Positions 1 through 16,636 of a stretch of DNA of 64,000 bases are shown one piece after another. Under the pieces are notes generated by a model. That model was not told the origin of the DNA, did not search any database, and was given only the letters and a program-made list of their open reading frames with translations. How positions within the stretch are numbered: the stretch's first letter is position 1; each line of letters begins with the position of its first letter. The stretch comes from Ktedonobacteraceae bacterium (lineage in GTDB: Bacteria > Chloroflexota > Ktedonobacteria > Ktedonobacterales > Ktedonobacteraceae). The position numbers and the translations under genes were made by a program. The DNA lies in assembly GCA_035653615.1 (NCBI GenBank), contig DASRBN010000044.1, forward strand, positions 1 through 64,000, read 5' to 3'.

Positions 1-31
1 ACCAGCCGCCTGGACGTGTACCGCCAATGAC

Positions 32-2880
32 GTTTCAATCCCCAACGGGCGTCTCAGGCCATTTAGCCGCGTGAATGGTGGGATGAGCGATTTGGCAAGT
101 CTAGTTTCAATCCCCAACGGGCGTCTCAGGCCATTTAGCCGCCGGAGTTCGCGCTTGCTAGCACGACCATGCTGATTGGTTTCAATCCCCAACGGGCGTC
201 TCAGGCCATTTAGCCGTGGGACGTTCTCGTTTCCGCTGCCGCCGTTGCCACGTTTCAATCCCCAACGGGCGTCTCAGGCCATTTAGCCGCGCCTACTCCT
301 ACACACACAGTAACTATTACAGCTGTTTCAATCCCCAACGGGCGTCTCAGGCCATTTAGCCGTTATGGGTACTATCGCACCAGTTGACGAATTGACTGTT
401 TCAATCCCCAACGGGCGTCTCAGGCCATTTAGCCGGTAAGGGATTTGCTCCAATATGGTCACTGGAGTTAGTTTCAATCCCCAACGGGCGTCTCAGGCCA
501 TTTAGCCAATCTGCTCCCACAATAGACGAGTTGAAATACTATTGTTTCAATCCCCAACGGGCGTCTCAGGCCATTTAGCCTGTAGGAAGCATCACCGAAT
601 GCCACGAAAGGTGATCGGTTTCAATCCCCAACGGGCGTCTCAGGCCATTTAGCCGTATCATACGGTCAAAACTTGCAAGGTATTGGTAAGTTTCAATCCC
701 CAACGGGCGTCTCAGGCCATTTAGCCAAGACGATCGCAACCCCAATTGCATCAACTCAAGTAGTTTCAATCCCCAACGGGCGTCTCAGGCCATTTAGCCC
801 CTCCGGCGCTGGCAACCGGTACCGCGCCTTGCGCAGCGTTTCAATCCCCAACGGGCGTCTCAGGCCATTTAGCCGCGGTTCCACGCTTGCTTCTGCAACT
901 GGAATACCACGTTTCAATCCCCAACGGGCGTCTCAGGCCATTTAGCCGGCTCGCTGTACCCTCATACCGATTTGCTATTTAGTAGTTTCAATCCCCAACG
1001 GGCGTCTCAGGCCATTTAGCCCTCAGGGTGGCACGACCACTGCCCCTGCCAATGGAGGGTTTCAATCCCCAACGGGCGTCTCAGGCCATTTAGCCCACGA
1101 ACTGACCCATCAGTACAGGAGCAATAATGCTGTTTCAATCCCCAACGGGCGTCTCAGGCCATTTAGCCACAGGTGACTTTGTGGGTGGATTTTTGGACAT
1201 GCGCGTTTCAATCCCCAACGGGCGTCTCAGGCCATTTAGCCTGTGCAGTATGGACATGGCACATCACCGGTTCCATTGTTTCAATCCCCAACGGGCGTCT
1301 CAGGCCATTTAGCCCCGGGTGAGGCAGACTTTACCCTAAAGGTGGAAGTGTTGGTTTCAATCCCCAACGGGCGTCTCAGGCCATTTAGCCCGAATCAAAT
1401 GCTTGACCTCTAAGAAGGCGTACATGGGTTTCAATCCCCAACGGGCGTCTCAGGCCATTTAGCCCCGGGTTGCGTGGCCTGCTTGCAACTGTAAACTTTG
1501 GTTTCAATCCCCAACGGGCGTCTCAGGCCATTTAGCCTGTTCAGCCACCATACTGCGACACGTTTTTTCACATCGTTTCAATCCCCAACGGGCGTCTCAG
1601 GCCATTTAGCCCACGCCATCTGCGGACGAGCGTCCACTCACTGGGATGTTTCAATCCCCAACGGGCGTCTCAGGCCATTTAGCCGATGGAATTCCTTACA
1701 TGGCATCACACGCACTATACGTTTCAATCCCCAACGGGCGTCTCAGGCCATTTAGCCGCCGCGGCCTCGCCTATGAGTCCGGCGCCGACTTTTCCGTTTC
1801 AATCCCCAACGGGCGTCTCAGGCCATTTAGCCATGGATGGGTAATCCCCACCATCTCCAACGGTCACAGTTTCAATCCCCAACGGGCGTCTCAGGCCATT
1901 TAGCCCATGAGTTGTGAGCCACCGACGTTAAACGGCTCATCCAGTTTCAATCCCCAACGGGCGTCTCAGGCCATTTAGCCACCGTTGTCGGTGTGGAATT
2001 ATCACGCCACGGCTGACAGTTTCAATCCCCAACGGGCGTCTCAGGCCATTTAGCCGTTTCTGGCAGTTTATGCTGCATCCCAGGTCGATGATTGTTTCAA
2101 TCCCCAACGGGCGTCTCAGGCCATTTAGCCCTGGAGAGATTTTCGCCTGCACTGCAAAGCACTGCTGGTTTCAATCCCCAACGGGCGTCTCAGGCCATTT
2201 AGCCGGGGGGACTGCTGTGTAGTGAGTGGCCTCCCTCTCATCGGTTTCAATCCCCAACGGGCGTCTCAGGCCATTTAGCCCCCCGACTTGAAGAACGTGG
2301 AGCGCATCCTGGAGTTCGGTTTCAATCCCCAACGGGCGTCTCAGGCCATTTAGCCCAATTGCCAGGTATGCTGTAAGGACAGCTTCAACTGAGTTTCAAT
2401 CCCCAACGGGCGTCTCAGGCCATTTAGCCGGCGTCTAAACCAGGGTAACATAGATATCCCCTCCAAATGTGTTTCAATCCCCAACGGGCGTCTCAGGCCA
2501 TTTAGCCTTTGGATTACTAGTCTCCTGCGGAATCCCTGCTTGTGTTTCAATCCCCAACGGGCGTCTCAGGCCATTTAGCCTCTCATGACTTCTCCCCATT
2601 CCTCGTAAGAAATCCAGGGTTTCAATCCCCAACGGGCGTCTCAGGCCATTTAGCCCCAATAGTTGCAAAAGCGCCAAAGCGTAAGAGAGGGAGGTTTCAA
2701 TCCCCAACGGGCGTCTCAGGCCATTTAGCCCCAGGATTTGAACCAGGCTCAGCTCGAGCTGGTGATCGTTTCAATCCCCAACGGGCGTCTCAGGCCATTT
2801 AGCCTGAAGTTGGAGGGGTTGTAAAATGCGGGCATCTCTGCTAGTTTCAATCCCCAACGGGCGTCTCAGGCCATTTAGCC
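32..2880 (-). CRISPR. CRISPR array, 39 repeats of 37 bp, open at left edge
   Basis: Thirty-nine 37-bp direct repeats start at 32, 104, 179, 252 and so on to 2844, with 38 unique spacers of 35-41 bp. On the plus strand each repeat begins GTTTCAATCC and ends TTTAGCC; I saw no variant by eye. Read on the minus strand the repeat ends ATTGAAAC, the usual 3' end that becomes the 8-nt crRNA 5' tag in type III and many type I systems, so transcription runs right to left. The cas genes on the right are on the same strand, and the leader lies at 2881-3065. Bases 1-31 are 31 nt of non-repeat sequence directly before the first repeat, which fits a truncated spacer, so the array continues outside the window and its trailer end is not visible. 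Newest spacers are expected at the right end. Confidence 0.98.
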
Positions 2881-3380: not shown

Positions 3381-4478
3381 CTATCGAATGCGCAGCGGTG
3401 GATACTCATCAATCTCGCCGGTCAGGTATTTCCCTAAGAGCCTGGCCTGGAGTTCAATGCAGCGCCGGTAGGTGGTTCTGTAGCCGAATAATGGATGCTG
3501 CACTTCTTCGTTCAGGCGTTCTTCCAATTTCGTGAAGAATACTTTGCGCTTCTCCTGCTTGAGATTGTATGCGCCTAACTCTACGACAAAATCATTCGGA
3601 CTCATCATGCGATGATTCAGCATGTTCAGCACCATCGAATCCACGATAACGGGCCGGAATTCTTCCAGAATATCGAGTGCCAGGGCTGGACGACCGTAAA
3701 AGGAACTGTGCAGGTAGCCCACATAGTGGTCGAACCCTACCAGCTGTACCGCGCTGGCAACTTTGCTGGTCAGCAGTGAGTAGCCAAAGCTGAGCAGCGC
3801 GTTCACCGGGTCGGTCGGCGGTCGCTTGACACGCCCTGGAAATGGCCATTGCCTGGGGTCGGAGAACAATTTGCCGAAACAGCTAAAGTAGGCCGCGCTG
3901 CCCGCACCCTCCATCCCCAGAATCGCTTCCAGGGGCGTACCTTCTATCCGGTTATCTCCCGTCGCCAATCGCTGTGGGACGTGTACCGCGTCTAATCGCA
4001 GCGCTGCCAGTTGCTGTAGCAGTGAGGTGATCTGTTCAATGGCCTGCCTCATCTCGGCATCGGATTGACGGCGCTGGTACCGTTGCAACATGGTGCGTTG
4101 ATTCATGAGCTTACCCATCACGAAGCGCCGCGCCAGTTCGCAGCGTTTGCCCATATCCAGGTGCGCGCGATACTGTGCCATGCGCAGGATGGCATTCCTG
4201 GAGAACGCGGGCGAGAGGCGACCCTTGAACTGTCCAAAATGGCTCATGAAGGTGATCTCGATGTCGCGCTCGAGCAACAGGCGCAGGGCCGAGGCCGTCA
4301 TTGTTACCTCGCCCATCACCACCACTTCGTCTATTTTGATCAGCGGCACGCGCTCCTTGCGAGCCGGGACGGCCGCCGCGCCATCCTTCGCGCGCCTTTC
4401 GGGAATTTGCACCAGCAGGCTGTCTTCGCCGTCGCGCCGTACCAGCGCATAGTCTTCGGTCAGATACAATGTTGGCAT
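3381..4478 (-). CDS. cas1: CRISPR integrase Cas1
   Basis: 365 aa from the ATG at 4478, chosen because AAAGGAG lies 7 nt upstream; the open frame extends to 4568 but has no ribosome site there. Cas1 integrates spacers into the leader-proximal repeat with Cas2. The N-terminal beta domain (about 1-85) is followed by the helical catalytic domain with the metal-ligand set Glu190 (in GMEGAGSA), His257 (in GYLHSSFYG) and Asp269/Glu272 (in LALDILEEFRP). It has no fused RT or Cas6 domain, unlike many RT-Cas1 proteins, but a separate RT gene lies two genes upstream. It starts 23 bp after cas4 and is followed by cas2. Confidence 0.97.
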   Translation of the reverse strand: MPTLYLTEDYALVRRDGEDSLLVQIPERRAKDGAAAVPARKERVPLIKIDEVVVMGEVTMTASALRLLLERDIEITFMSHFGQFKGRLSPAFSRNAILRMAQYRAHLDMGKRCELARRFVMGKLMNQRTMLQRYQRRQSDAEMRQAIEQITSLLQQLAALRLDAVHVPQRLATGDNRIEGTPLEAILGMEGAGSAAYFSCFGKLFSDPRQWPFPGRVKRPPTDPVNALLSFGYSLLTSKVASAVQLVGFDHYVGYLHSSFYGRPALALDILEEFRPVIVDSMVLNMLNHRMMSPNDFVVELGAYNLKQEKRKVFFTKLEERLNEEVQHPLFGYRTTYRRCIELQARLLGKYLTGEIDEYPPLRIR

Positions 4479-4501
4479 GTCTATGCTCCTTTCAACCAGA
4501 C

Positions 4502-5119
4502 CTACGTAAGCTTTTTCGCTTGCAGCATTCGCACTTCCTCCGGCATACAGAGCGGCAGCAGGCTGCATTTGGGGCAGCGTGCCGCCAGTTGACCTGTAAG
4601 CGGCGGTGGCGGAGTCTCAAGCGCCGCTATTTTCAATGCCTGGACGATGGCGGCCCGCGTCCTGGCGCGCAGTTCCTGTGTGAAACGTACCTGCACGCGC
4701 CTGCGCGAGCCAACGTAGTAGATGTAGCCATAGGGGATGAGCGGCTGGCCGGGACGACGCTCTTCCAGACACAATGCTTGCGCGCACAGTTGAATGGAAT
4801 GATTGAGCCAGTCGCCCTGCTGCCCGTGCTTGTATTCCACCGGTACAGGCACGCCTGCCCGCTCCTCGATCACATCGGCAAAACCCGTCAGGCGCAACGC
4901 CTCGGAATACAGGTAGAGGCGCGTGATCTGCATCTCCCCCTCCGCCGTCGTATGTGTCCCTTCCTGGTGGACACGCTCGTGTTCCAGCGTCCCCTCCAGC
5001 ACGTATTCATTGACCAGCATCTCCCCCTGCACGAACTGGTAGTAAAACTTGCGCGGGCAGTATTCCAGCGCGTTGAGCGAGGAGATGGGGATCATCTCCG
5101 TCTGTGGTATAGTTGCCAT
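4502..5119 (-). CDS. cas4: CRISPR-associated exonuclease Cas4
   Basis: 205 aa RecB-family nuclease that trims prespacers and helps choose PAM and orientation during adaptation. Seen in the sequence: Cys21 near the N-terminus and a C-terminal CPKC...C cluster (Cys182, Cys185, Cys191) for the 4Fe-4S centre; GFADVIEE (Asp82) and VEYKHG (Glu95, Lys97) for the PD-(D/E)xK core. It lies immediately upstream of cas1 in the same direction. Cas4 is unusual in many type III loci, so the adaptation module may have been shared with or taken from a type I system; that is inference. Confidence 0.95.
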   Translation of the reverse strand: MATIPQTEMIPISSLNALEYCPRKFYYQFVQGEMLVNEYVLEGTLEHERVHQEGTHTTAEGEMQITRLYLYSEALRLTGFADVIEERAGVPVPVEYKHGQQGDWLNHSIQLCAQALCLEERRPGQPLIPYGYIYYVGSRRRVQVRFTQELRARTRAAIVQALKIAALETPPPPLTGQLAARCPKCSLLPLCMPEEVRMLQAKKLT

Positions 5120-5330: not shown

Positions 5331-6842
5331 CTACCCTTTCAAAATGCTCTTTTGCCGGTACGCGCGTAGTTGAATGCCGTTGGTGGTCGCGAAAACCCTC
5401 CGATTGTTTCCGGCGCGCTGCCAGTAACGATTGAGCAACCAGTCGCGCCCCTTGCCTGGGTGCCGCCGACCCGCCCAATCGAGGAGCCGCTGCTCCAGCA
5501 GATCATCGTAGCGGTTCAGCGTTGCCGCCGGAACGATACCGTTGTAGTAGTTCGCCCAGCCCATAATCATGGGATTGAGTTCCTCAATCACCTGCGCCTG
5601 CGGAGCCTGCTGCAACTGCCGTAACTTTTGCTCGATGGCCGCCAGGTGCCGATTGCTCGCCTCCTGGCCGGGGGCCACGATGGTCTTCAATCCCGTTGGG
5701 CGCAGCGGCGACGTGAGCCGCTGCATAAGGGATGTGAATCCAGACATGCTTGCCTGCGCCGGTGCCCGTCCCTGCCCGCTCCTGCCTGGAGAAGGTTGCT
5801 CTCTCGACTCCTGATGAATGTGAAAGCCCAGGAAATCGAAGCCGACCTGGCCTGAATAGGGCATCAGCGTATGCGCGATGCGTGTTTTGCCGGGATGCAG
5901 GTGCAATCCCATCGTTGCCAGCCACTGCCGGACTCGTTTGGCCGCCTGTTGCAGTTCCTTGAGGTCGGTATGCAAAATCACGAAGTCGTCGGCATAGCGT
6001 ATCAGCAACGGCCGCTCCTTTGCCTGATCTCTGGCGGTACTGCCAGCTGCTATGGCCTCCATTCCATGCAGCGCCACATTCATCAATAAAGGCGAAAGCA
6101 CGCCTCCCTGGGCAATGCCCGTTTCGACGGCATAGTAGGTGTGGTCGTCGATCACCCCCGCCTTGAGCCAGGCCTGAATGGTCTCGCGCAGCGCAGGATA
6201 GGTTTGCAGCTTGTCCAGCACCATCGCCTGGTTGACATGATCAAATGCCCCCTCGATATCAGCATCGAACACATAGGTAGGCTGGCGTTCAATCGCGACC
6301 AGAATGGCCGCGATCGCATCATGCCCACTGCGACCGGGACGAAAACCGAAGCTATGTGGCTCAAACTGCGCCTCCCACTCCGGTTCAAGCGCCAGTTTCA
6401 CCAGCGCCTGCTTGCAGCGGTCGATCATCGGCAGGATGGCCACCGGGCGCTGTTCCGTCGTACCCGGCTTGGGAATCCATACTCGCCGCACCGGTCGCGG
6501 CACCTGTTGTCGCCAGTTCCGCGGATGAATCGTCGCCGCCATCGCCAGCCGCTCCTCGGCACTCAGCGATTTAACGCCATCGACGCCCGGCGTATGCCTG
6601 CCCGAATTCTCCTCCGCCGCGCGGCGCACCGCCAGTAGCCGGGCCGCCTCGGACTCCATCAATCGCTGCTGCAAGGAATGTACCGCCTGCTTATCCCCGC
6701 GCTGGCATGCCTGTGAAATCTGCATCTGCATGCGCACCACCTGCTGCTCCAACGATTTCCACGGCACGCCATTGCGTGCTGAATTCGCCGGAGCAGCCGC
6801 CTGTTGCACGCGCGCGTTTCCCGATAGTTTCTTATCTTTCAT
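5331..6842 (-). CDS. Group II intron-like reverse transcriptase in a cas operon
   Basis: 503 aa. The reverse transcriptase domain (about 85-345) has an N-terminal RVT_N-like helical part, FDADIEGAFD (Asp193 and Asp195), QGGVLSPLL (245-253) and the catalytic YADD at 283-286. A maturase-like X/thumb region follows with LNPMIMGWANYY at 422-433. There is no HNH endonuclease domain and no Cas1 or Cas6 fusion. It sits in the same direction as cas4-cas1-cas2, 211 bp upstream, so it most likely supplies cDNA for spacer acquisition from RNA, as known for RT-associated type III systems. It could instead be the coding part of a mobile group II intron, but no intron RNA ends are visible. The ATG at 6842 directly abuts AGGAG, which is unusually close. 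Confidence 0.9.
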   Translation of the reverse strand: MKDKKLSGNARVQQAAAPANSARNGVPWKSLEQQVVRMQMQISQACQRGDKQAVHSLQQRLMESEAARLLAVRRAAEENSGRHTPGVDGVKSLSAEERLAMAATIHPRNWRQQVPRPVRRVWIPKPGTTEQRPVAILPMIDRCKQALVKLALEPEWEAQFEPHSFGFRPGRSGHDAIAAILVAIERQPTYVFDADIEGAFDHVNQAMVLDKLQTYPALRETIQAWLKAGVIDDHTYYAVETGIAQGGVLSPLLMNVALHGMEAIAAGSTARDQAKERPLLIRYADDFVILHTDLKELQQAAKRVRQWLATMGLHLHPGKTRIAHTLMPYSGQVGFDFLGFHIHQESREQPSPGRSGQGRAPAQASMSGFTSLMQRLTSPLRPTGLKTIVAPGQEASNRHLAAIEQKLRQLQQAPQAQVIEELNPMIMGWANYYNGIVPAATLNRYDDLLEQRLLDWAGRRHPGKGRDWLLNRYWQRAGNNRRVFATTNGIQLRAYRQKSILKG

Positions 6843-7165
6843 CTCCTATGTCCGATTCACTTTCAATACAAACGCGACAAAGGGCCGATAAATCGGCGGT
6901 GCCCACGATAAATCGGGGCCTACGGCCATCACCCGGTCACCCATTTGCCCCGTTGCCACCCTGTGACGATGAAGCGGCACCCCGGCGGTGCCGTAGGGGC
7001 CGATTCATCGCGCCCAGCGCCGATTCATCGGCCCTACGTGGGAAACCGACCACTGCTGGATTGCTTCGTCAATGCCTACCATCCTGTTCCTGGAACAGGG
7101 TCTATTTGCCGGACGATTGCCCCACCCTGGGCGCGATAAATCTGGCCTCTACATCCTCGCCCCCA
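6843..7165. repeat. Intergenic gap with two type-B palindromic repeats
   Basis: 323 bp between RT and the JAB-E1 gene, both on the minus strand. It contains two dispersed repeat copies (6881-6925 and 6992-7039). Each is a pair of short dyads of the form GCCGATNNATCGGC, joined by a GC-rich linker such as CGCCCAGCGC and flanked by CCTACG or CGTAGG. No gene is seen in the gap. Confidence 0.8.
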
Positions 7166-8560
7166 TCACACATTGCACACAAAACACTGCTTGTTCCTCA
7201 TCCGCACGCTCTCTTTATCCTCGTAGATGCTCATCGCGCCGTTGTTTTCGTAGACCAGGATGGGTACATGCCTGTATACATCCGTGTACTGGTTGATCAA
7301 TACATCCACCAGCATCGTCGCCAGGTACGTGTTCAGCGTTTTAACGGCAGGCTCCTTGACATTCATGCCCGTCACATAGCCTCGTTTCACCAGCTCCTCG
7401 CGGATCATCTGATCAGGATGCTTCTCACTCGCGACCTTCGTCGGGTTGATACGGTGCAGGCATTGCAAGCACAGCCTGTCGCCCACCCTGGCCGTAATCA
7501 CTTCCCCACTCATATCCTCGATCTTGCCATCCTTCACCGTGATGTTAACCCCTACAGAGAGCAGCGGCACAAAGTATTCGATGGAGAGTTCCTGCGCGCG
7601 CAACCGGCTGGAATGGTTATCAGTCGCCACAATGATCCAATCGGAGAGCGCCAGCACGCTCTCGATCTCCTGGTCATGCACATCCTTCCTGTAGGCCTGT
7701 ACGGTGGCCTTGGGATTAATGCGGGTGAGATGCCGCTTGACCACGTCCACCTTGGGCAGCTTCCTCTGAGCATCCTCGTAGTACGCGCCCACGACGCGGT
7801 TCAGGTTCGACATCTCCAGCACATCGGGGTCAATGAGATTGATCTCGTGAAAGCCCATATGAATGAGATGTTCGGCGATGATGGAACCTAATCCGCCGAC
7901 GCCCACAATTGAGATGACCTGGTCATGCATGATCGTTCGCATCACGTCCAGGCCCAGCACCGCCGCGCCGCGATTGAAAAAGCCCTCGGTAGCCGTCACC
8001 GCCGTCTTTTCGTATTGATCATCCGCGTATTCGCGAAAGTCGGCGCTCGCGATACGCTCCCGACTCGTCTGCGTCTTCAGTTGCGCGGTTTTGGGAATGA
8101 TGGAGCCACCGTTGAGCGTCCAGACGCGCGCAGAGTAGCGGCTCTGCGAGAAAACGATGCTGGCGTAGTGAATACCGGCAAATGTCTCGTGCAAAAACTG
8201 GAAGAAGGTCTGCTCGTCGCCATCATCTGTGGCCGAGAACGCGACCCGCCCCTGCGAGAAGGGGTGTGTATGCACATCGATAATCGTATCGACATCGTAG
8301 CGCCTGGTCATCTCGGCCAGCGCCGCGTGGACGAAATCCTTTTTGATGCGCAAGAAGGCCACATTCTGCGTATTGTAATCCGCCTGCGAGGGATATAGCT
8401 GATCGATAACGTTGATGATCATACAGCCATTGACCCGGCGCGTCTTCCCCAGCAAAATCGCAAAATGCTCCTTCGAAAGATCCTCCAGTAGCGTCTCTCG
8501 CAACTGCTCAAGATCGCCATTTTTAAACTTGATCTGATAACGCGATTGTGTAGTATGCAT
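7166..8560 (-). CDS. JAB deubiquitinase-like / E1 (ThiF-like) fusion protein
   Basis: 464 aa from the ATG at 8560 (AAAGGA 7 nt upstream; the longer open frame to 8686 reads through a dispersed repeat). The N-terminal JAB/MPN metalloprotease domain (about 20-160) has Glu31, then H97-T-H99-P, Ser109 and Asp112, the zinc-ligand pattern with a slightly long loop between His and Ser. The C-terminal E1-like adenylation domain (about 205-464) has GVGGLGS at 220-226, LIDPDVLEMSNLNR with Arg255, VATDN and two zinc-knuckle pairs, CLQC (364-367) and CFVC (459-462). Members of this kind activate a ubiquitin-like protein and cleave its C-terminus or conjugates. No Cys lies between the two knuckle pairs, where a catalytic E1 Cys would be expected. 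It follows the E2-like gene after a repeat-filled 631-bp gap. Confidence 0.9.
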   Translation of the reverse strand: MHTTQSRYQIKFKNGDLEQLRETLLEDLSKEHFAILLGKTRRVNGCMIINVIDQLYPSQADYNTQNVAFLRIKKDFVHAALAEMTRRYDVDTIIDVHTHPFSQGRVAFSATDDGDEQTFFQFLHETFAGIHYASIVFSQSRYSARVWTLNGGSIIPKTAQLKTQTSRERIASADFREYADDQYEKTAVTATEGFFNRGAAVLGLDVMRTIMHDQVISIVGVGGLGSIIAEHLIHMGFHEINLIDPDVLEMSNLNRVVGAYYEDAQRKLPKVDVVKRHLTRINPKATVQAYRKDVHDQEIESVLALSDWIIVATDNHSSRLRAQELSIEYFVPLLSVGVNITVKDGKIEDMSGEVITARVGDRLCLQCLHRINPTKVASEKHPDQMIREELVKRGYVTGMNVKEPAVKTLNTYLATMLVDVLINQYTDVYRHVPILVYENNGAMSIYEDKESVRMRNKQCFVCNV

Positions 8561-9191
8561 GAATGGTTCCTTTCGTAATATGGATAGGTTTTTTGCACCG
8601 CCCCTGGGCATGTCATTCTGAGCGTAGCGAAGAATCCCCCGGCTTTTTCGCCCCCCACTCTCGCCCGGTCTGCTTCCGAGAAACACCTGATTGGGTTTTT
8701 GGGAAGGTGAGGGTGAGGCTCTTACGACCGTTCATGGTGGAGTCGCTCTTCCTGGCACACAGCTGTGTACACGCCAGGGGCCAGGTTATGGGCATGCACA
8801 CATTGGTATGGTAATCCCGCCAGGGGGCCGATCAATCGGCGATGCCCGCGATAAATCGGGGCCTACGGCATCCCGCCGCGGCGAAGCCGCGTAGGGGCCG
8901 GGCAGTCCTGTCTGGGGGACAGGCATACCGTACCCATCGCCGATTTATCGGCCTCCACGTCCATCCCAGAGTATTTTGTCAAAAACCTTCATCGGGCCTG
9001 GCGCAATTACCCCGTTATTTTGTTCAAGCCCATCATCACGCCCTCTGATTGAGCCTGCTCGAATTCACATGCCTATCCTCACCATGGGGCACGATGATGC
9101 CTTTCAACAAACGATGGTGGTCAACCACGCCGGGCCGATGAATCGGCGCTGGGCGCGATCAATCGGCCCCTACGACCCTCCCCATACATCC
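8561..9191. repeat. 631-bp gap filled with dispersed repeats
   Basis: No gene is supported here. It holds one type-A repeat (8610-8640, GTCATTCTGAGCG then GCGAAGAATCC), type-B repeats at 8823-8868 and 9130-9174, and a half copy at 8938-8960. Plus-strand open frames across it are complements of genes or repeat read-through. The gap may separate the JAB-E1 gene from its upstream partners transcriptionally; no clear promoter was seen. Confidence 0.75.
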
Positions 9192-9875
9192 CTATTCCTC
9201 CGTTCCCGACAACACTTCGCTAATCAGCGTAAAGTATGTCCAGAGGCTATCGCCCTTGCGCCAATCTCCGGGATGTATGACCGGGGCCGGCTGCCATCCC
9301 CCGGGGTTGATGTAGACGCAGTACCACTTCCATCCCTGCGTCAAGGGGTCGCTGCAGGCCTCGTGATAGGCTTGCTGGTACAGGTGCCCGTTGACGGAGA
9401 GCGGTATATCTTGCCTGAGGTAGAAACCGACCGGCGGCAGCACCGGATATTCGGTCGGGAAGACAACCATCAGATCGGTCGTTTGAGCGATGTTATGCCA
9501 GATGGGCGGCAACACATAATTGTTGGCTATCATCCAATCGGCATTTTCCTCGTCAAACGACACGCCACGCTTGAACAAGTTCTCCGCGATATCGTAAACC
9601 TGTTCAGTGATGATCTGTTTGGAAAGCCAGGTTCGCACTCCCCCATAGGTGACGCCCTTCGTGCGGTCAGGAATCGTGGTAATCTTGACCGGATTGCCAT
9701 GCTTGTCGTACAGTTCCGCCGGCGTATAGGTATGGCTCGGCTGCACAGGACGGAAAGCCATTCCCTGCTGGATGACCGGGCGCCGGCCAACTCCAGGATT
9801 CAATTGCTGGATCAAATTCTGCCCGGTAATGCCCCCGGGTGGAACCTGAATCCTTCGACCATTAATGATCGCCAT
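9192..9875 (-). CDS. E2-like (prokaryotic UBC-fold) protein with possible N-terminal ubiquitin-like part
   Basis: 227 aa; ATG at 9875 with AAGGAG 9 nt upstream. Residues 96-222 match the pattern of bacterial E2-like proteins found beside JAB-E1 genes: LPPIWHNIA, then DLMVVFPTEYPVLPPVGFYL (the UBC beta-strands with PxxPP), then GWKWYC (Cys186), GGW and a C-terminal helix GDSLWTYFTLISEVL. Cys186 is the only reasonable candidate thiolester Cys besides Cys174. Residues 1-79 (INGRRIQVPPGG, TGQNLIQQL, then beta-like segments) could be a ubiquitin-like fold and end in Tyr-Gly-Gly (77-79). No separate ubiquitin-like gene is visible. It lies between the NYN gene (39 bp upstream) and the JAB-E1 gene. 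Confidence 0.75.
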   Translation of the reverse strand: MAIINGRRIQVPPGGITGQNLIQQLNPGVGRRPVIQQGMAFRPVQPSHTYTPAELYDKHGNPVKITTIPDRTKGVTYGGVRTWLSKQIITEQVYDIAENLFKRGVSFDEENADWMIANNYVLPPIWHNIAQTTDLMVVFPTEYPVLPPVGFYLRQDIPLSVNGHLYQQAYHEACSDPLTQGWKWYCVYINPGGWQPAPVIHPGDWRKGDSLWTYFTLISEVLSGTEE

Positions 9876-9914: not shown

Positions 9915-10580
9915 TTATAACGTCACATCATCGCTGCTGTCCGCGACAGCCACACCCGTCTCCTCGCCTTTCAGATCGACGGTGATCTTTGCCCCTGGTT
10001 CGTCCGCGTCCAGGTCAAGCGCCTGCGATTCGATGAGTTTTTGAAACTGATCGTCCTCGAGCCTGTCCGCGCTTGCATTGCCATCCAGGGCCGCCAGGTA
10101 GCCGTCATAGTACACGGCCAGGTTGATAAAGCCCGAAGACTTGATCAGGATATCCGTTCCAGCATTCTCCAGAAACGTCGCCACCTCGACTCGCACACCG
10201 GCCCGCCTGACCTCCTGAATCAGCGGGATAAAATCGGAATCGCCGGTCGCCAGCACAATAATGTCCGGCTTGACCTGGTACACCACGCGCTGCACGTCCA
10301 TCGCGATCTCAACGTCGAAGTTGCATTTGTACGTACCGCCCGCGATCGTACCCATCTTGGTAGTGACGATGTAGCCGGCCCGCCATAGCTCCTCAATCTC
10401 CGCGTCCAATCGATGCTCGTTGCGCGGATTGATGGGGACGTAGCAATACGCCTCGACGAGAAACCGCTGCTCGCCGACATAGTGCAGCAGGTCGGCGTAG
10501 TCCATGCGATACCTTTTCTCCCTGGCCGCGCGATTGACGTTGGCGTAATCCAGGAAGAAGACAACCTTTTCCTTTTCCAT
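9915..10580 (-). CDS. NYN (LabA/PIN-like) domain ribonuclease
   Basis: 221 aa. The NYN domain is a PIN-like metal-dependent RNase fold. Acidic residues are at the expected sites: FFLDYANVN (Asp11, Asn14), FDVEIAMD (Asp89, Asp95) and ATGDSDF (Asp114, Asp116). The C-terminal 60 residues are acidic and low-complexity. ATG at 10580 was chosen over the GTG at 10589 because AGGAGG lies directly against the GTG but about 10 nt from the ATG. It is the first gene of a minus-strand unit with the E2-like and JAB-E1 genes, divergent from a STAND ATPase, which suggests an RNA-cleaving output for that unit (inference). Confidence 0.88.
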   Translation of the reverse strand: MEKEKVVFFLDYANVNRAAREKRYRMDYADLLHYVGEQRFLVEAYCYVPINPRNEHRLDAEIEELWRAGYIVTTKMGTIAGGTYKCNFDVEIAMDVQRVVYQVKPDIIVLATGDSDFIPLIQEVRRAGVRVEVATFLENAGTDILIKSSGFINLAVYYDGYLAALDGNASADRLEDDQFQKLIESQALDLDADEPGAKITVDLKGEETGVAVADSSDDVTL

Positions 10581-10925
10581 AATGTTCACTCCTCCTTTAG
10601 GAATGTGACTTACCTGGCCACTTCAGTTCGACTGTTAGTGATTGCCCAGAAGCGAGGCCGGGATTCTTCGCTGCACTCAGAATGACATGACCTGTGCATG
10701 TCATTCTGAGTGCAGCGAAGAATCCCTCGTGCCATTCTCAGACCGGCAGACACTCCTCGTTCTGGCAAATTTCCAGTTCGACTGTACTTGAAGTGTTTCT
10801 CTCCAGGTGTTAAACTACGTAGCGGAAGGTTCAGTTTTCCCTTCCACTACGAGCATATCCGTAAAGGTTGTCATTGAGAATGACATCTTTTGTCATTAGA
10901 TTTTGATAGCAACGGGTGAAAAACT
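10581..10925. promoter_or_regulatory. Divergent regulatory region with paired dyads and a hairpin
   Basis: 345 bp between the NYN gene (left) and the STAND gene (right). The 12-mer CAGTTCGACTGT, itself a dyad (CAGT-TCG-ACTG), occurs at 10624-10635 and again at 10774-10785. Between them is a type-A repeat pair with 29-bp perfect arms (10661-10689 and 10697-10725) and a 7-nt loop. Close to the STAND start is the palindrome GTCATTGAGAATGAC (10870-10884) with a third half-site GTCATT at 10892-10897. These are candidate operators for the divergent units, possibly bound by the STAND protein's own HTH; binding is inference. Confidence 0.5.
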
Positions 10926-12356
10926 ATGACATATGCAGGTCGCCCGCGCCGTGAGGAAGAGAGGCCGGATAGCGCATTTGGCAAGGCGCTCAAACACTAC
11001 TTACAGCGTATCGAGGATTTCACACAGACCGATTTAGCCAGGGAGACCGGCATTCCCGAAAGAACGCTCTCCCTTATGGTCAAGGGGGAACGCGCAAGCG
11101 GCACGACACTGCGGCGCGATCTGCGCGACATCATCAAGGTCCTGTACAAAAAGAATGCGCTTCATTCGCTTGCAGAGGCCAACCAGCTGGTGACCAGCAT
11201 TCCAATGATCAAAGAACTGGACGAGCGCGATTCCGATGACGCGGCAGTAATCAAACTGTTCAGTACATCCCTGACCGAAAACGAACGACTTGCTCGCATT
11301 GAGGAGCGCATCCGGCACGTGCTGCGCGATAACGCGGTTGTCGATCACACACAGTTGTTCGGCGTCGACACGCTGCTAAAGAAATTAAAAGATGACCTCT
11401 TCGCGCCGCAGGGTGCATGGGTGATCAGCCTCTGTGGCGAGGGCGGACTCGGCAAAACGGCCCTCACCTATGAAGCGGTCGCTCGTTATGCAGCCTCAGC
11501 AGGCTTTACCAGGGTTGGCTGGGTTTCGGCCAAAACATTCCAATTGCTACCCGATGGCATACTCTTGAGAGATGGCAGCGCCGAACTGCATTGGGGCAAT
11601 ATACTCAAAAAATTAGCGGACCAGCTCGGTATTCGCCTTGGTGATAACTCGAGCGGGTGGATCAAGGATTTTCAGCGCGGAATACGCTCGCTTCCGCCAG
11701 GAGAACGCTGCCTGCTCGTTGTGGATAACCTCGAAACGGTTCAGGATATCGATGAGGTCATCCAGTACCTGGGCCGCAACACGCTCGTCAATCCGCATAA
11801 GATACTCCTCACGACCCGCCATGCTCTGTTAGGAAAAGTGCAGTACCTGGTCGAACGGCACGTCAAAGCCCTTGAACTTGAACCGGCCTTACGCTTTATC
11901 CGTACTCTCGGTGGCGATGTTGTCGAACAGGCAAGCGATGACGAACTGCGGCCCATCGTAGATGTTACCGAGGGCAACCCCCTCTTAATCAAGCTCTTCG
12001 TCACGCGCCTGCTCGTGAGCCACCAGCCGCTCGATTTTGTCGTGGAAGAGTTACAGGCGGTTAATCAGCGCCTCGGCCAGAACATCATCGACTACCTCTA
12101 CGCGGAATCGCTCTCGATGCTGCAACAACGCTGCGGCAAAGAGGCCGCGCGTCGTCTCCTCAACGCCTTTTGCCCACTTGGCGCCGGAGATAGCGTGACC
12201 TACGGGGCGCTGCGCACCTACAGCGACATCGCGGACGACGAGGTGTTTCACAATACGCTCAAGGTTGCTTGCGACCTGTCATTAATTCGCAGTTTGAATC
12301 TCAATGCTCGTTTTTCCATTCATAGCCTGTTATGGAAATTTGTGTGTGAATACTGA
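10926..12356 (+). CDS. HTH - NB-ARC STAND ATPase
   Basis: 476 aa. Residues about 15-75 form a Cro/C1-type HTH (TDLARETGIPERTLSLMVKG). An NB-ARC/AP-ATPase module follows: Walker A GEGGLGKT at 171-178, Walker B LLVVDN at 263-268, a sensor ILLTTRH and VTEGNPLLIKL, the GLPL-like motif. A winged-helix-like tail follows. STAND proteins are oligomerising switches used in regulation and in phage defence. Sensor repeats are normally fused C-terminally; here they are absent, but a TPR protein begins 8 bp downstream, so the two probably work as a split STAND sensor. It is divergent from the NYN/E2/JAB-E1 genes. Confidence 0.88.
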   Translation: MTYAGRPRREEERPDSAFGKALKHYLQRIEDFTQTDLARETGIPERTLSLMVKGERASGTTLRRDLRDIIKVLYKKNALHSLAEANQLVTSIPMIKELDERDSDDAAVIKLFSTSLTENERLARIEERIRHVLRDNAVVDHTQLFGVDTLLKKLKDDLFAPQGAWVISLCGEGGLGKTALTYEAVARYAASAGFTRVGWVSAKTFQLLPDGILLRDGSAELHWGNILKKLADQLGIRLGDNSSGWIKDFQRGIRSLPPGERCLLVVDNLETVQDIDEVIQYLGRNTLVNPHKILLTTRHALLGKVQYLVERHVKALELEPALRFIRTLGGDVVEQASDDELRPIVDVTEGNPLLIKLFVTRLLVSHQPLDFVVEELQAVNQRLGQNIIDYLYAESLSMLQQRCGKEAARRLLNAFCPLGAGDSVTYGALRTYSDIADDEVFHNTLKVACDLSLIRSLNLNARFSIHSLLWKFVCEY

Positions 12357-12364
12357 GAAAATTC

Positions 12365-13873
12365 ATGCAATCAATAGACGACACCGCTATCGAACAAAAA
12401 ATACAAAACATCCGCGCCACGAAAGCGGATTTTCGCCAGGCGGATGACAGGCGTAACGCCTTTGAAAGAGTATTGCGCGATTACTATGAACGTCTTCGCA
12501 TGGCCCAATCTCCTTCCCAGGAAGACATCATCCAATCGCTCCATGTCCTCTACCGGGCATTGAACGCGCCGGAACTGGTTGATCAGCAGTTGCTCATCGA
12601 CTTCATCGCGGTCGTTATTCGTTTTGTGGAAAACGCCGGTGTGGGCTACGAATTCAGCAAAGGCTTCATAGACAAGGCCATTCAGGTCTATCGAAAAGCA
12701 GGCTTTTCGCCCGTCGAACTCTACCAGGCGAAGGCCGACCTGCTGCGCCTCAATCAACTCGAAAGCGCCGAGCGCGAGCAGGCGCTTCTGGAAGCCAGGC
12801 GCTACGCTGAAGTTTCAGGCAACGCCGAAATGCTGCTGCGCGTACTCATCTCATGCGCCGTGTACTACACCGAAGTGAGCCAGTACCAGAAGGCCCTTAC
12901 GGCCTGCCAGGAAAGCGAGCAACTGATCGAGCGCCATAGCCACCTGCAAAAGTACCGGCCCAAATTGCTGACCCTCTTTGGCATGAACTACACGCCACTC
13001 TTCAAATACCAGATCGCCAAAGACTGCCTGATGCAGGCAAAAACATTGCTCGATGCTGAAGAAAACCGGCAGGATGACGGTGAAAACTATGAAATCTGGG
13101 TCAGTTCGATGGATACGATCTATCACTACCTGGGCCGTATCTACGCAGCGGAAGGCGACCTGCAAGCAGCCATGTATCACTATGTCGAAGGGCATCGCTA
13201 CCAGCACATGTTTGCTCAGGAGCCTCGCTCGCGCCTCGCCTTCTACCACCTGCGCATAGGCGAACTGCTCACTTCAGCCTCGCTACTGGAGCAGGCTCGC
13301 GACCACCTGCTACTGAGCCAGGAAATGTTCGACGCCATCAAATTCTCCAGTTCAGGGCGCCTGCAAGTCAGCGCCGCCTGGGCCGCGCTTTACAGCAAGG
13401 AAGGAGATTACGTGCGGGCGCGAGAATATATCCTCGACGCCAGAAAAGAGGCCCGCAACAAGCAGTTTTCCCGCGGCGAACTCTGGTGCCTGGTCAAACT
13501 CTTCTGGCTGGAACTGGGTCATTTCCACCTGTATCGTGCCATCGTCGCTGCTATCCAGGCGCTCGGAACCTGGCGTCACGGAGAACTGCGGCGCAACGAA
13601 ACCCTCAGAATGCTTGGTCACTACTTCGTACAGGTCGTCTCCGCGCCTATCAAACTGCTGAGCCGTAAGCCCCATACCGTGATGGGCGCCGGAACGCTCA
13701 ACGCCAGATTGCAGGCGTGCATTTGCCCCCTGCACCAATCCTGTGATCCCCAAAAGAGATTCTTCGCTCCGCTCAGAATGACATGCTGGCTGTGTCATTC
13801 TGAGCGCAGTGAAGAATCCCGCTGGCCTGTCATTCTGAACGAAGCAAAGAATCCCGCTGGCCTGTCATTCTGA
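12365..13873 (+). CDS. TPR-repeat protein, probable partner of the STAND ATPase
   Basis: 502 aa as read. The protein is helical throughout, with TPR-like units through about residues 60-430 (for example HYLGRIYAAEGDLQAAMYHYVEG and AWAALYSKEGDYVRAREYILDARKEA). It starts 8 bp after the STAND gene and is surely co-transcribed. It probably supplies the sensing superhelix that STAND proteins usually carry in the same chain. About the last 45 residues (from roughly codon 460) are encoded by dispersed type-A repeats (HSERSEES and ILNEAKNP are translated repeat), so the natural C-terminus was probably replaced by repeat insertion. Confidence 0.8.
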   Translation: MQSIDDTAIEQKIQNIRATKADFRQADDRRNAFERVLRDYYERLRMAQSPSQEDIIQSLHVLYRALNAPELVDQQLLIDFIAVVIRFVENAGVGYEFSKGFIDKAIQVYRKAGFSPVELYQAKADLLRLNQLESAEREQALLEARRYAEVSGNAEMLLRVLISCAVYYTEVSQYQKALTACQESEQLIERHSHLQKYRPKLLTLFGMNYTPLFKYQIAKDCLMQAKTLLDAEENRQDDGENYEIWVSSMDTIYHYLGRIYAAEGDLQAAMYHYVEGHRYQHMFAQEPRSRLAFYHLRIGELLTSASLLEQARDHLLLSQEMFDAIKFSSSGRLQVSAAWAALYSKEGDYVRAREYILDARKEARNKQFSRGELWCLVKLFWLELGHFHLYRAIVAAIQALGTWRHGELRRNETLRMLGHYFVQVVSAPIKLLSRKPHTVMGAGTLNARLQACICPLHQSCDPQKRFFAPLRMTCWLCHSERSEESRWPVILNEAKNPAGLSF

Positions 13874-13893
13874 GCGCAGCGAAGAATCCCGCT
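13751..13893. repeat. Cluster of four type-A repeats overlapping the TPR gene end
   Basis: Four copies of the type-A element (core GTCATTCTGAGCG...GCGAAGAATCC): one inverted at about 13759-13786, then three direct copies at about 13795-13825, 13828-13857 and 13863-13893, separated by the same CGCTGGCCT-like linker. The first copies are translated as the C-terminus of the TPR protein. Bases 13894-14002 hold no further gene. Confidence 0.85.
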
Positions 13894-14519: not shown

Positions 14520-15434
14520 CTACCCGTGGTCTGTTTCAAAGTAGCGCGAAAAATGCCGGTAGAGAAATCGCTGGTCGAATGGCCCATAGTCCGCGCTATC
14601 CCAGACCTGCGCGCAGGTATCCAGCAACTTATCTCTATGGCTATACACTGTTTTGATGGAGAGGCAGAGCCGGTCGGCGATCTCCTGGGCGGTGAGACCA
14701 TCCGCGATACCGCGCAGGACATCGAACTGGCGATGCGTAATCTTCTGGATAAAAGCCTCGCAGCGCGCGTGTTCTTGCGCGTCCATGCGCGCTTTCCCGG
14801 CCTGCTGGGCCGCCTGCGCGCTGGGAAACGACTGCGCCAGCAAGGGAACGTAATCGGCTATAGGAAAGAACGGCATCTCGATCAGGTTCACCCTTGCATC
14901 GGGCGGAACGTGCATCTGCGCGCCGTCTCTCACCTGCGCCTTGATAGCTTCGGGCGTGTAGATGTGCCAGATATGGTCGAACGAGTCGAATTTGAGCTGC
15001 GCGGCTGAAATGGCCAGCAGCGCCATCAGTCGCCGCCCACCGGTCACCGACAGGTGAATATGGCGCGGCTGCTGTTTCAGCTCCTCGAAAAAGCTGTAAA
15101 TGGTGTCGCGCGTTCCTTTAGCAGAGGTGTTGTCGGTGATATCGTCCAGCGGAATGTGATCGAGTTCCAGGATTTTCGGGCGAAAAGGGCAGTTGATGAT
15201 GCGCCCATCGATCTGATAATGGTCGTCCGGAAATTCGGCGTGCAGGCAGTCGAGAGCATGTCGCAGGCGCGGCTGAGCGGCGCGTGGGAGAATTACGATC
15301 ACCTCGCCTATCGTTACGCCATGCCGCAGTAACAGGTCGAGCGTGAACGTCACCACCTGCGGCTGCCCGCCGAGGGTGGCTACCAGCGTCTGAATATAGT
15401 TCAATTCGGGCATTCGCGGCACACTCACTTTCAT
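14520..15434 (-). CDS. CARF-like (Cas_NE0113/Csx14-like) protein with LuxR-type HTH
   Basis: 304 aa from the Met at 15434. The N-terminal Rossmann-like part (about 10-200) opens with LVATLGGQPQVVTF (17-30) and has SVTGGRRLM (128-136), the two loops typical of CARF/Csm6-like nucleotide-binding domains of the NE0113 type. Residues 232-272 are a clear LuxR/GerE-type HTH (THRQFDVLRGIADGLTAQEI, then SIKTVYSHRDKLL). The combination predicts a transcription factor that senses cyclic oligoadenylate. It is divergent from the Csx3-ATPase gene, with only 23 bp between the chosen starts. The start has no clear ribosome site; Met at 15413 is an alternative. Confidence 0.8.
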   Translation of the reverse strand: MKVSVPRMPELNYIQTLVATLGGQPQVVTFTLDLLLRHGVTIGEVIVILPRAAQPRLRHALDCLHAEFPDDHYQIDGRIINCPFRPKILELDHIPLDDITDNTSAKGTRDTIYSFFEELKQQPRHIHLSVTGGRRLMALLAISAAQLKFDSFDHIWHIYTPEAIKAQVRDGAQMHVPPDARVNLIEMPFFPIADYVPLLAQSFPSAQAAQQAGKARMDAQEHARCEAFIQKITHRQFDVLRGIADGLTAQEIADRLCLSIKTVYSHRDKLLDTCAQVWDSADYGPFDQRFLYRHFSRYFETDHG

Positions 15435-15457
15435 TATAGAGAAAGGACTATCGAACG

Positions 15458-16636
15458 ATGAACGTACTTCCGGCCATATTGATCGGCGGCCCACCCAACG
15501 CGGGCAAATCCGTCCTGTTCTACAGCCTGACGATGGCGCTGTATGAACGCGGCATCAAACATCATATCGTGCGCGCCTGCCCCGACGGCGAGGGCAACTG
15601 GTATCAAGAGATTCACCGCTCGCTCGACCCAGAAATCGCCCGGCTCATTAAGGTACAATCGAAGGCAGAATGGACGCCGGCATTCGTCGAGGGTATCTGT
15701 CGCGACCTGGAACGCCGTCACACTCCGCTCCTGGTAGATGTGGGTGGCCGCCCGCAAACATGGCAGCACTGCATCCTGCATCAATGCACGCACTCGATCT
15801 TACTCTATCGCGACCCCAATGACGAGGCTACCCACTTCTGGCAGCACTTGCTGGGTTCAACACAACTCCTGCCGCTGGCCTCCATCCATTCTACCTTACA
15901 TGGAGAAGCCGTGCTGACGGAAGAAACGCCCGTCATTCGCGGAACGCTCACCGGCTTAGAACGCGGCACGCGCGCGCAAGGGCCAGTTTTCGACGCGCTG
16001 GTGAATCGCATCGTCGCGCTCTTTGCCACCTATCCGCTCGCCGAGTTGGAGCAGGCGCAACTACAAAAGGCGCCCGCGGAACCCGTCGTTCTCCCAGACC
16101 TGCTGCACAAGTTCGATGCCGGCGCGCAGGAATGGAAGCCTACCATGCTGCGCCTTCTCGCCGGAGAACTGCCATCTAACCAGCCGCTGGCCATCTACGG
16201 CAAGGGTCCCGGCTGGCTCTACGGCACTCTGGCGTCCCAGGTAGGTGAGCAGCCATTCTACCAGTTCGATCCGCGCATCGGCTGGATGGCCCCGCCGCGA
16301 CTCGAATCCGGCACGGAGCCTGCTCCCGAAGGACTCACCTACCGGCTCTACGACGATTCCTATGGGCAGGTACTCTCCATCAAACTCAGCAACGAATACC
16401 TGGACTACCTGCAGGCAGAAGGAATGCATTTCCCGCCGATTCAGGCCGGTCGCGGACTCATTCTCAACGGCAAGATGCCGCTCTGGCTGCTGACCGCGCT
16501 CGTCCGTCTCTATCGCGTGGCGGAAGTCCCCTGGATCGCCTGCTACCAGCCACAGGTAAAGGGAGCGGTGATCGTACTTTCCCGCGGCGATGAATACGCG
16601 ATTGGTGATGTGATCCTCATGCCCATGCCGCAGTGA
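15458..16636 (+). CDS. csx3: P-loop ATPase fused to two Csx3-like segments
   Basis: 392 aa. The N-terminal P-loop domain (about 1-195) has GGPPNAGKS at 10-18 and LLVDVGGRPQ. The C-terminal part resembles Csx3, a tetrameric ring nuclease for cyclic tetra-adenylate, and does so twice: GKGPGWLYGTL (248-258) with FDPRIG (270-275), and GKMPLWLLTAL (338-348) with YQPQVKGAVIVLSRGDEYAIGDVI. Csx3-AAA fusions are known. From memory, Csx3 catalysis needs a His shortly before the DPRLG motif; no His is at that site in either segment, and the Asp is kept only in the first (Asp271; Gln364 in the second). It may bind rather than cut its ligand, or act through the ATPase. Confidence 0.82.
   Translation: MNVLPAILIGGPPNAGKSVLFYSLTMALYERGIKHHIVRACPDGEGNWYQEIHRSLDPEIARLIKVQSKAEWTPAFVEGICRDLERRHTPLLVDVGGRPQTWQHCILHQCTHSILLYRDPNDEATHFWQHLLGSTQLLPLASIHSTLHGEAVLTEETPVIRGTLTGLERGTRAQGPVFDALVNRIVALFATYPLAELEQAQLQKAPAEPVVLPDLLHKFDAGAQEWKPTMLRLLAGELPSNQPLAIYGKGPGWLYGTLASQVGEQPFYQFDPRIGWMAPPRLESGTEPAPEGLTYRLYDDSYGQVLSIKLSNEYLDYLQAEGMHFPPIQAGRGLILNGKMPLWLLTALVRLYRVAEVPWIACYQPQVKGAVIVLSRGDEYAIGDVILMPMPQ

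Follow-up and report, generated by a model that had tools for sequence, protein, structure and literature searches.

A predicted ubiquitin-like modifier fused to a cysteine-type E2-like protein within a CRISPR locus of a Ktedonobacteraceae bacterium

In the sections of their survey drawn on here, Iyer et al. described operons that combine a polyUbl, an E2/RWD-like domain and a JAB-E1, in some of which the ubiquitin-like protein (Ubl) is fused to an E2 without the cysteine (Iyer et al., 2006; PMC1779556). Judging from their shared make-up and from matches to BubA, BubB and BubCD, we infer that such operons now go by the name of Bub. The count of Bub operons stands at 544, and the text giving it states that their protection against phage is undemonstrated (PMC13373217). 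Frames that join a Ubl to an E2, with a JAB-E1 as partner, are already known from Bub and from operon type 6e of Iyer et al. Solved structures of Bub come from Citrobacter BubA, BubB and BubCD (PDB 9d59, 9ea4, 9ea8, 9eae, and 9eav). In Enterobacter P0013, a single 362-aa frame matches BubA over residues 2-229 and BubB over residues 230-362, with the split at Gly229, where the deposited BubA ends, the deposited BubB starting at residue 230. Further, a BubCD carrying D104A, which changes the JAMM aspartate, was solved with BubA 155-229. Together, the Enterobacter frame and this structure provide a precedent for a fused precursor with an internal Gly. A related maturation step is described for the Bil system (BilABCD) in a review, according to which BilA is cut by the JAB, exposing a C-terminal Gly (PMC11354881).

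The stretch of DNA analyzed here (referred to as the window) comprises 64,000 nucleotides of a genome assembly of a Ktedonobacteraceae bacterium. The 227-aa frame of an E2-like protein was confirmed at 9192-9875 on the minus strand, and its ATG start is preceded by AGAAGGAGAA, a good ribosome-binding site. A first-pass annotation, made from the DNA letters and their translations, had proposed that this protein carries its own ubiquitin-like domain in residues 1-79, ending in Tyr77-Gly78-Gly79 just before the E2 fold, and that a JAB domain encoded downstream could cut after Gly79 to release a 79-residue modifier. The motif is present and is followed by an E2 domain, which Pfam places at residues 99-222 (Prok-E2_E, 24.1 bits, cut-off 25), and a JAB domain is indeed encoded downstream, in a protein matching ThiF (E 1e-34) and Prok-JAB (22 bits, cut-off 25). 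Table 1 lists the parts of the frame and its neighbors.

Table 1. Features of the Ubl-E2 frame and of the surrounding cassette and CRISPR locus, in window coordinates.
Feature	Coordinates	Strand	Basis
Beta-grasp (ubiquitin-like) domain, residues 1-74; modifier predicted to end at Lys73-Gly74	9654..9875	-	blastp, residues 2-74 vs. the separate Ubls of three cyanobacterial loci; AF2 beta-grasp, residues 1-70
Gly74 codon, predicted modifier C-terminus and predicted JAB cut site	9654..9656	-	equals C-terminal Gly of Microcystis and TIOX110 Ubl; KG in 6/6 sequences
Linker, residues 75-87, variable	9615..9653	-	identity to Dictyobacter 9/13, to Planctomycetota copy 4/13
Tyr77-Gly78-Gly79, cut site proposed in the first-pass annotation	9639..9647	-	in window and Dictyobacter, not in third fused copy
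E2/UBC-like domain, residues 88-227	9195..9614	-	Prok-E2_E 24.1 bits (sub-cut-off); hhalign 95.8% to Bub-type E2s
Codon of Cys186 (in GWxWYC), predicted active-site cysteine of the E2	9318..9320	-	invariant in 6/6 relatives; C-x7-W-x-P in three fused copies
JAB-E1, a ThiF-type E1 with a JAB/JAMM protease at its N-terminus, about 464 aa (ATG at 8560)	7166..8560	-	Pfam ThiF; sub-cut-off Prok-JAB; invariant JAMM residues
NYN-domain protein (predicted RNase), first cassette gene	9915..10589	-	NYN PF01936, E 6e-20
Reverse transcriptase with group II maturase domain, between cas4 and JAB-E1, same strand	5331..6842	-	RVT_1, RVT_N, GIIM
Cas4	4502..5119	-	PF01930, E 5e-18
Cas1	3381..4568	-	PF01867, E 4e-88
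CRISPR array, 39 repeat copies, about 73-75 nt spacing	31..2845	.	repeat copies

We are nearly certain that the N-terminal part of the E2-like protein is a Ubl domain, as had been proposed, since both homology and the predicted fold bear this out. Three cyanobacterial plasmids (Nostoc pNPM1, Aphanizomenonaceae TIOX110, and Microcystis p1) carry loci of the same make-up, with NYN, a small Ubl, E2, JAB-E1, and cas genes, in which the related E2 is a separate gene of 160-161 aa located directly after a Ubl gene of 65-73 aa. Each of these Ubls can be aligned end to end with residues 2-74 of the window protein (blastp, 28-31% identity), and none of 2000 shuffles reached the observed score in any of the three pairs; the Dictyobacter Ubl domain is weaker in this respect, with 2 of 2000 shuffles scoring as high against Microcystis. 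Among the 279 stop-to-stop ORFs of the three cyanobacterial loci, the three Ubl genes are the three top matches (E 3e-4 to 0.001), followed by one at 0.06. Identity between the fused and the separate Ubls amounts to only about 30%. Gene fission and fusion between cyanobacteria and Ktedonobacteria independently identifies the N-terminal part as the modifier. No separate Ubl gene of this family was found in the window's genome, in agreement with the first reading of the window, as a five-row Ubl profile matched only this locus genome-wide (next best E 0.7). The window Ubl domain alone matched no Pfam family, including the ThiS-like PF14453, to which the cyanobacterial Ubls come nearest with sub-cut-off scores (20.3, 17.3, and 16.8 bits vs. 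26). Multi_ubiq (PF14452) was also considered as its family and ruled out, because Pfam gave no such match for the window Ubl and none above the cut-off in the window's genome, and hhalign gave 0.1% between two small Ubl alignments.

The AlphaFold (AF2) model, for which the prediction took in three of the six E2 relatives, shows the beta-grasp order of elements in residues 1-70, with a mean pLDDT of 67-89 per block of ten residues. Its best structural match is 9d59, a multi-ubiquitin chain (Z 7.7, rmsd 2.5, 68 aligned, model 1..73), and the closest solved chains are all bacterial multi-ubiquitin proteins (9d59, 8u38, and 9d5b, Z 7.1-7.7), with ISG15 and SUMO lower at about 5; Z-scores below 8 may, as the tool warns, mean only a common arrangement of elements and are not decisive alone. 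Foldseek returned no match at E <= 0.001, and the Ubl profile matched nothing below E 1 among PDB sequences. The structural matches agree with the sequence evidence in assigning a beta-grasp fold.

The neighboring JAB-E1 has retained the JAMM residues E27, H93, H95, S105, and D108, which are invariant in all seven aligned E1s, and its adenylation motifs are intact. A seven-row E1 profile found Citrobacter BubCD as its best solved match (E 1.9e-64). Beyond two CxxC pairs, the aligned E1s contain no conserved cysteine, which makes a thioester step on the E1 doubtful. A tree was built from 13 E1s, namely those of the window, of Dictyobacter, and of all 11 plasmid loci retrieved, out of 112 matching records. 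In this tree, the five CRISPR-linked E1s lie on one side of a branch with support 80/90, a grouping that is only suggestive because long branches meet there.

Relatives of the fused protein are few. Two fused copies are intact, in the window and in Dictyobacter, and a third, in a Planctomycetota MAG (L005 1-1000), is decayed: its NYN is truncated, its Ubl-E2 frame is missing residues 1-41, and its E1 is reduced to the final residues. The E2 profile matched in 2 of 47 genomes of the class and in 1 of 392 genomes in a draw centered on the Planctomycetota genome, while single-protein searches gave matches in 2/400 genomes of the phylum and 2/61 relatives. A scan of genome contigs yielded two loci and a plasmid search three records; the scans of viral contigs yielded no relatives.

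We regard it as fairly probable that the 227-residue protein is a fused precursor, consisting of a 74-residue ThiS-like Ubl, a variable linker, and a cysteine-type E2. Processing of the Ubl-E2 by the JAB, which we likewise think rather probable, is plausible on the model of the related Bub system. In the proposed mechanism, the JAB domain of the neighboring JAB-E1 would cut after Gly74 and free the modifier, the E1 would adenylate Gly74, and the modifier would pass to Cys186 of the E2 and then be attached to a target. The whole cassette (NYN RNase, Ubl-E2, and JAB-E1) lies next to a CRISPR adaptation module and to a set of type III effector genes.

Since only two intact fused copies were found and the reading frame continues through the linker, the Ubl and the E2 may remain joined for good. 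A permanently fused Ubl would work in cis, either by holding the E2 at the JAB-E1 or by forming a self-assembling scaffold, and the JAB would act elsewhere or only remove conjugates; bacterial multi-ubiquitin proteins do assemble into filaments, as the titles of 9d59 and 9d5b state. We consider this unlikely, because the Gly74 end is the best kept part of the tail (KITTIPDRTKG in the window vs. KIDTIPDRTKG in the Planctomycetota copy), the JAMM residues are kept, a separate form of the Ubl exists in cyanobacteria, and the Bub precedent was deposited as two proteins split at the internal Gly.

For the processed precursor, we are confident that the modifier ends at Gly74 rather than at Gly79. 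The alignment between the window and cyanobacterial Ubls stops at Gly74, and the matching Gly is the last residue of two of the three separate Ubls (TIOX110 and Microcystis), while the Nostoc Ubl (L006 5561-5782) has eight residues beyond its Lys-Gly, as if it needed C-terminal trimming. Lys73-Gly74 is kept in all six sequences, namely the five Ubls of alignment A3, which omits the Planctomycetota copy with its missing N-terminus, and that copy itself. Homology and conservation therefore put the tail at Lys73-Gly74, and the predicted modifier has 74 residues. Di-glycine tails are usual for ubiquitin, and Tyr77-Gly78-Gly79 is kept in Dictyobacter, both of which would suit a 79-residue modifier cut after Gly78-Gly79; however, the Dictyobacter protein is 81% identical to that of the window, and the Planctomycetota copy has an unrelated linker, 15 residues longer and without GG, in which PDRTKG is nonetheless kept. 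On the model, the structural matches end between residues 70 and 79, and those of the closest three between 70 and 74. The conserved end is thus Gly74, YGG belongs to the linker, and the longer modifier is improbable. Of the earlier proposal, then, the Ubl domain stands, but Gly78-Gly79 is not conserved among homologs and was rejected as its end, leaving a cut after Gly79 unsupported.

For the E2 part, an hhalign comparison of E2 alignment A2 with the Bub-type alignment A6, which omits the Natribaculum and Pla86 loci, gave 95.8% at E 7e-9, and the only PDB sequences matched by the E2 profile were two eukaryotic E2s (E 0.03 and 0.07). As AlphaFold did not fold this part with confidence (pLDDT 50), the placement of Cys186 rests on sequence. 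Classical E2s (UBC) have their active-site Cys in C-x7-W-x-P spacing, and the same spacing is found around Cys186 in the three fused copies, while the cyanobacterial E2s have a longer insert before W-x-P. Cys186 is invariant in all six E2s of the window type, whereas the Bub-type E2s examined have Ser (6/6), the correspondence of the two sites being based on the motif and not on the hhalign path. The E2 of Bub, in work attributed to Ye et al. in 2026, reportedly lacks an active-site Cys and uses Ser and oxyester chemistry. One Natribaculum E2 also has a Cys at a like place, so the Cys is not confined to the CRISPR-linked group. On that plasmid of Natribaculum luteum (L015 2444-3933), two tandem pairs of small Ubl-like and E2-like genes precede one ThiF gene, and one of the E2-like proteins has its Cys in a KYC..W-D-P setting while the other lacks it; the two pairs are possibly a paired active/inactive system.

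That the ThiS-like domain is a sulfur carrier, bringing a thiocarboxylate to a small molecule or RNA with the E2-like part as a binding partner and not a conjugating enzyme, seems very unlikely. The nearness of the cyanobacterial Ubls to PF14453, the E1 without an extra conserved cysteine, and the adjoining NYN RNase would fit it, but the E2 has a conserved Cys in a C-x7-W-x-P setting and the nearest solved relative of the JAB-E1 is a conjugation E1.

NYN, Ubl-E2, JAB-E1, the reverse transcriptase (possibly a CRISPR adaptation RT), cas4, and cas1 all lie on one strand and run towards the 39-repeat CRISPR array. On the other side of the locus are Csx3, Cas6, a Card1-like gene (sub-cut-off), Cas10, and RAMPs. 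A related NYN gene is located upstream in all five other loci, and CRISPR cas genes or arrays are found beside 5/5 intact loci, a count that omits the damaged Planctomycetota copy at its contig end. In Dictyobacter, a CRISPR array is located about 2.3 kb from NYN, and cas1, cas2, and/or cas10 are present in the DNA retrieved around each of the three cyanobacterial plasmid loci.

Several other features of these loci were observed. The window encodes at 14520-15494 (-) a Csx14/NE0113-like CRISPR protein with a C-terminal LuxR-type HTH, and a protein similar to it by eye is encoded near the array in Dictyobacter (L027 7497-8102), where one part of the CRISPR array occurs twice, with its spacers and at 100% identity (L027 3570-3869 and 5025-5324). 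The cyanobacterial loci have an extra gene between NYN and Ubl (L006 5004-5375, L007 4909-5373, and L008 5147-5734), two of which, when translated, appear by eye to encode a coiled coil and one membrane segment; nothing in the window corresponds to it between NYN and Ubl-E2. Genes for an HTH-NB-ARC STAND protein and a TPR protein, at 10926-13873 (+), are divergent from NYN, and the TPR frame extends at its end into interspersed repeats. Two families of such short repeats are present between the cassette genes (8603-8641, 10691-10729, and 13785-13893; 6870-6926, 8813-8869, and 9120-9176), and they also fill part of the 630-base gap between Ubl-E2 and JAB-E1.

The association of such genes with CRISPR is not wholly new. 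The legend of Figure 6 in Altae-Tran et al. (2023) lists NYN, ThiS, and Prok-E2 among putative auxiliary genes of CRISPR systems, with ThiF appearing in a different panel; these probably represent the same kind of cassette as that in the window, although the legend itself names 'Prok-E2 family A' and gives no organism or fusion (PMC10910872). In literature joining CRISPR with E1, E2, and JAB, where coverage of subscription journals was thin, no description of the cassette was found. Two genes of this CRISPR locus together encode all components of a minimal ubiquitin-like conjugation set (modifier, E2, E1, and protease), and the Ubl-E2 has one predicted cut site (Gly74) and one predicted active site (Cys186). 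We tentatively suggest, as a possibility to which we give limited weight, that it is a CRISPR-dedicated conjugation cassette with a cysteine E2, in which the JAB-E1-matured Ubl-E2 would tag Cas, NYN, or RT proteins and so regulate spacer acquisition or type III CRISPR signaling, giving it an immune role.

Compared with the described systems, the window cassette shares with Bil the presence of a Ubl, an E1, an E2, and a JAB, but Bil, as the review describes it, has separate genes, a two-domain Ubl, and an E1 with its own Cys domain (PMC11354881). The cassette resembles Bub in outline. As in Bub and operon type 6e, the JAB is fused N-terminally to a ThiF-type E1 and the Ubl either precedes the E2 as a separate gene or shares its frame, the window E2 scoring just below the Prok-E2_E cut-off, and as in the Citrobacter/Enterobacter form of Bub, there is an internal Gly at the Ubl-E2 fusion point. 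Unlike Bub, it has Cys at the E2 site in place of the Ser of the Bub-type E2s, a single ThiS-like Ubl without a Multi_ubiq match, and an NYN nuclease gene and CRISPR neighbors. Also unlike Bub, no DUF6527-type (metal-binding) match was obtained among the 17 distinct window ORFs scanned with Pfam, and no such protein is annotated in the three cyanobacterial loci. We do not class the window cassette with Bub, since it departs from Bub in a defining feature that was tested. If the cassette works as proposed, it would link protein tagging to CRISPR immunity and represent a cysteine-type counterpart to the serine-type Bub pathway.
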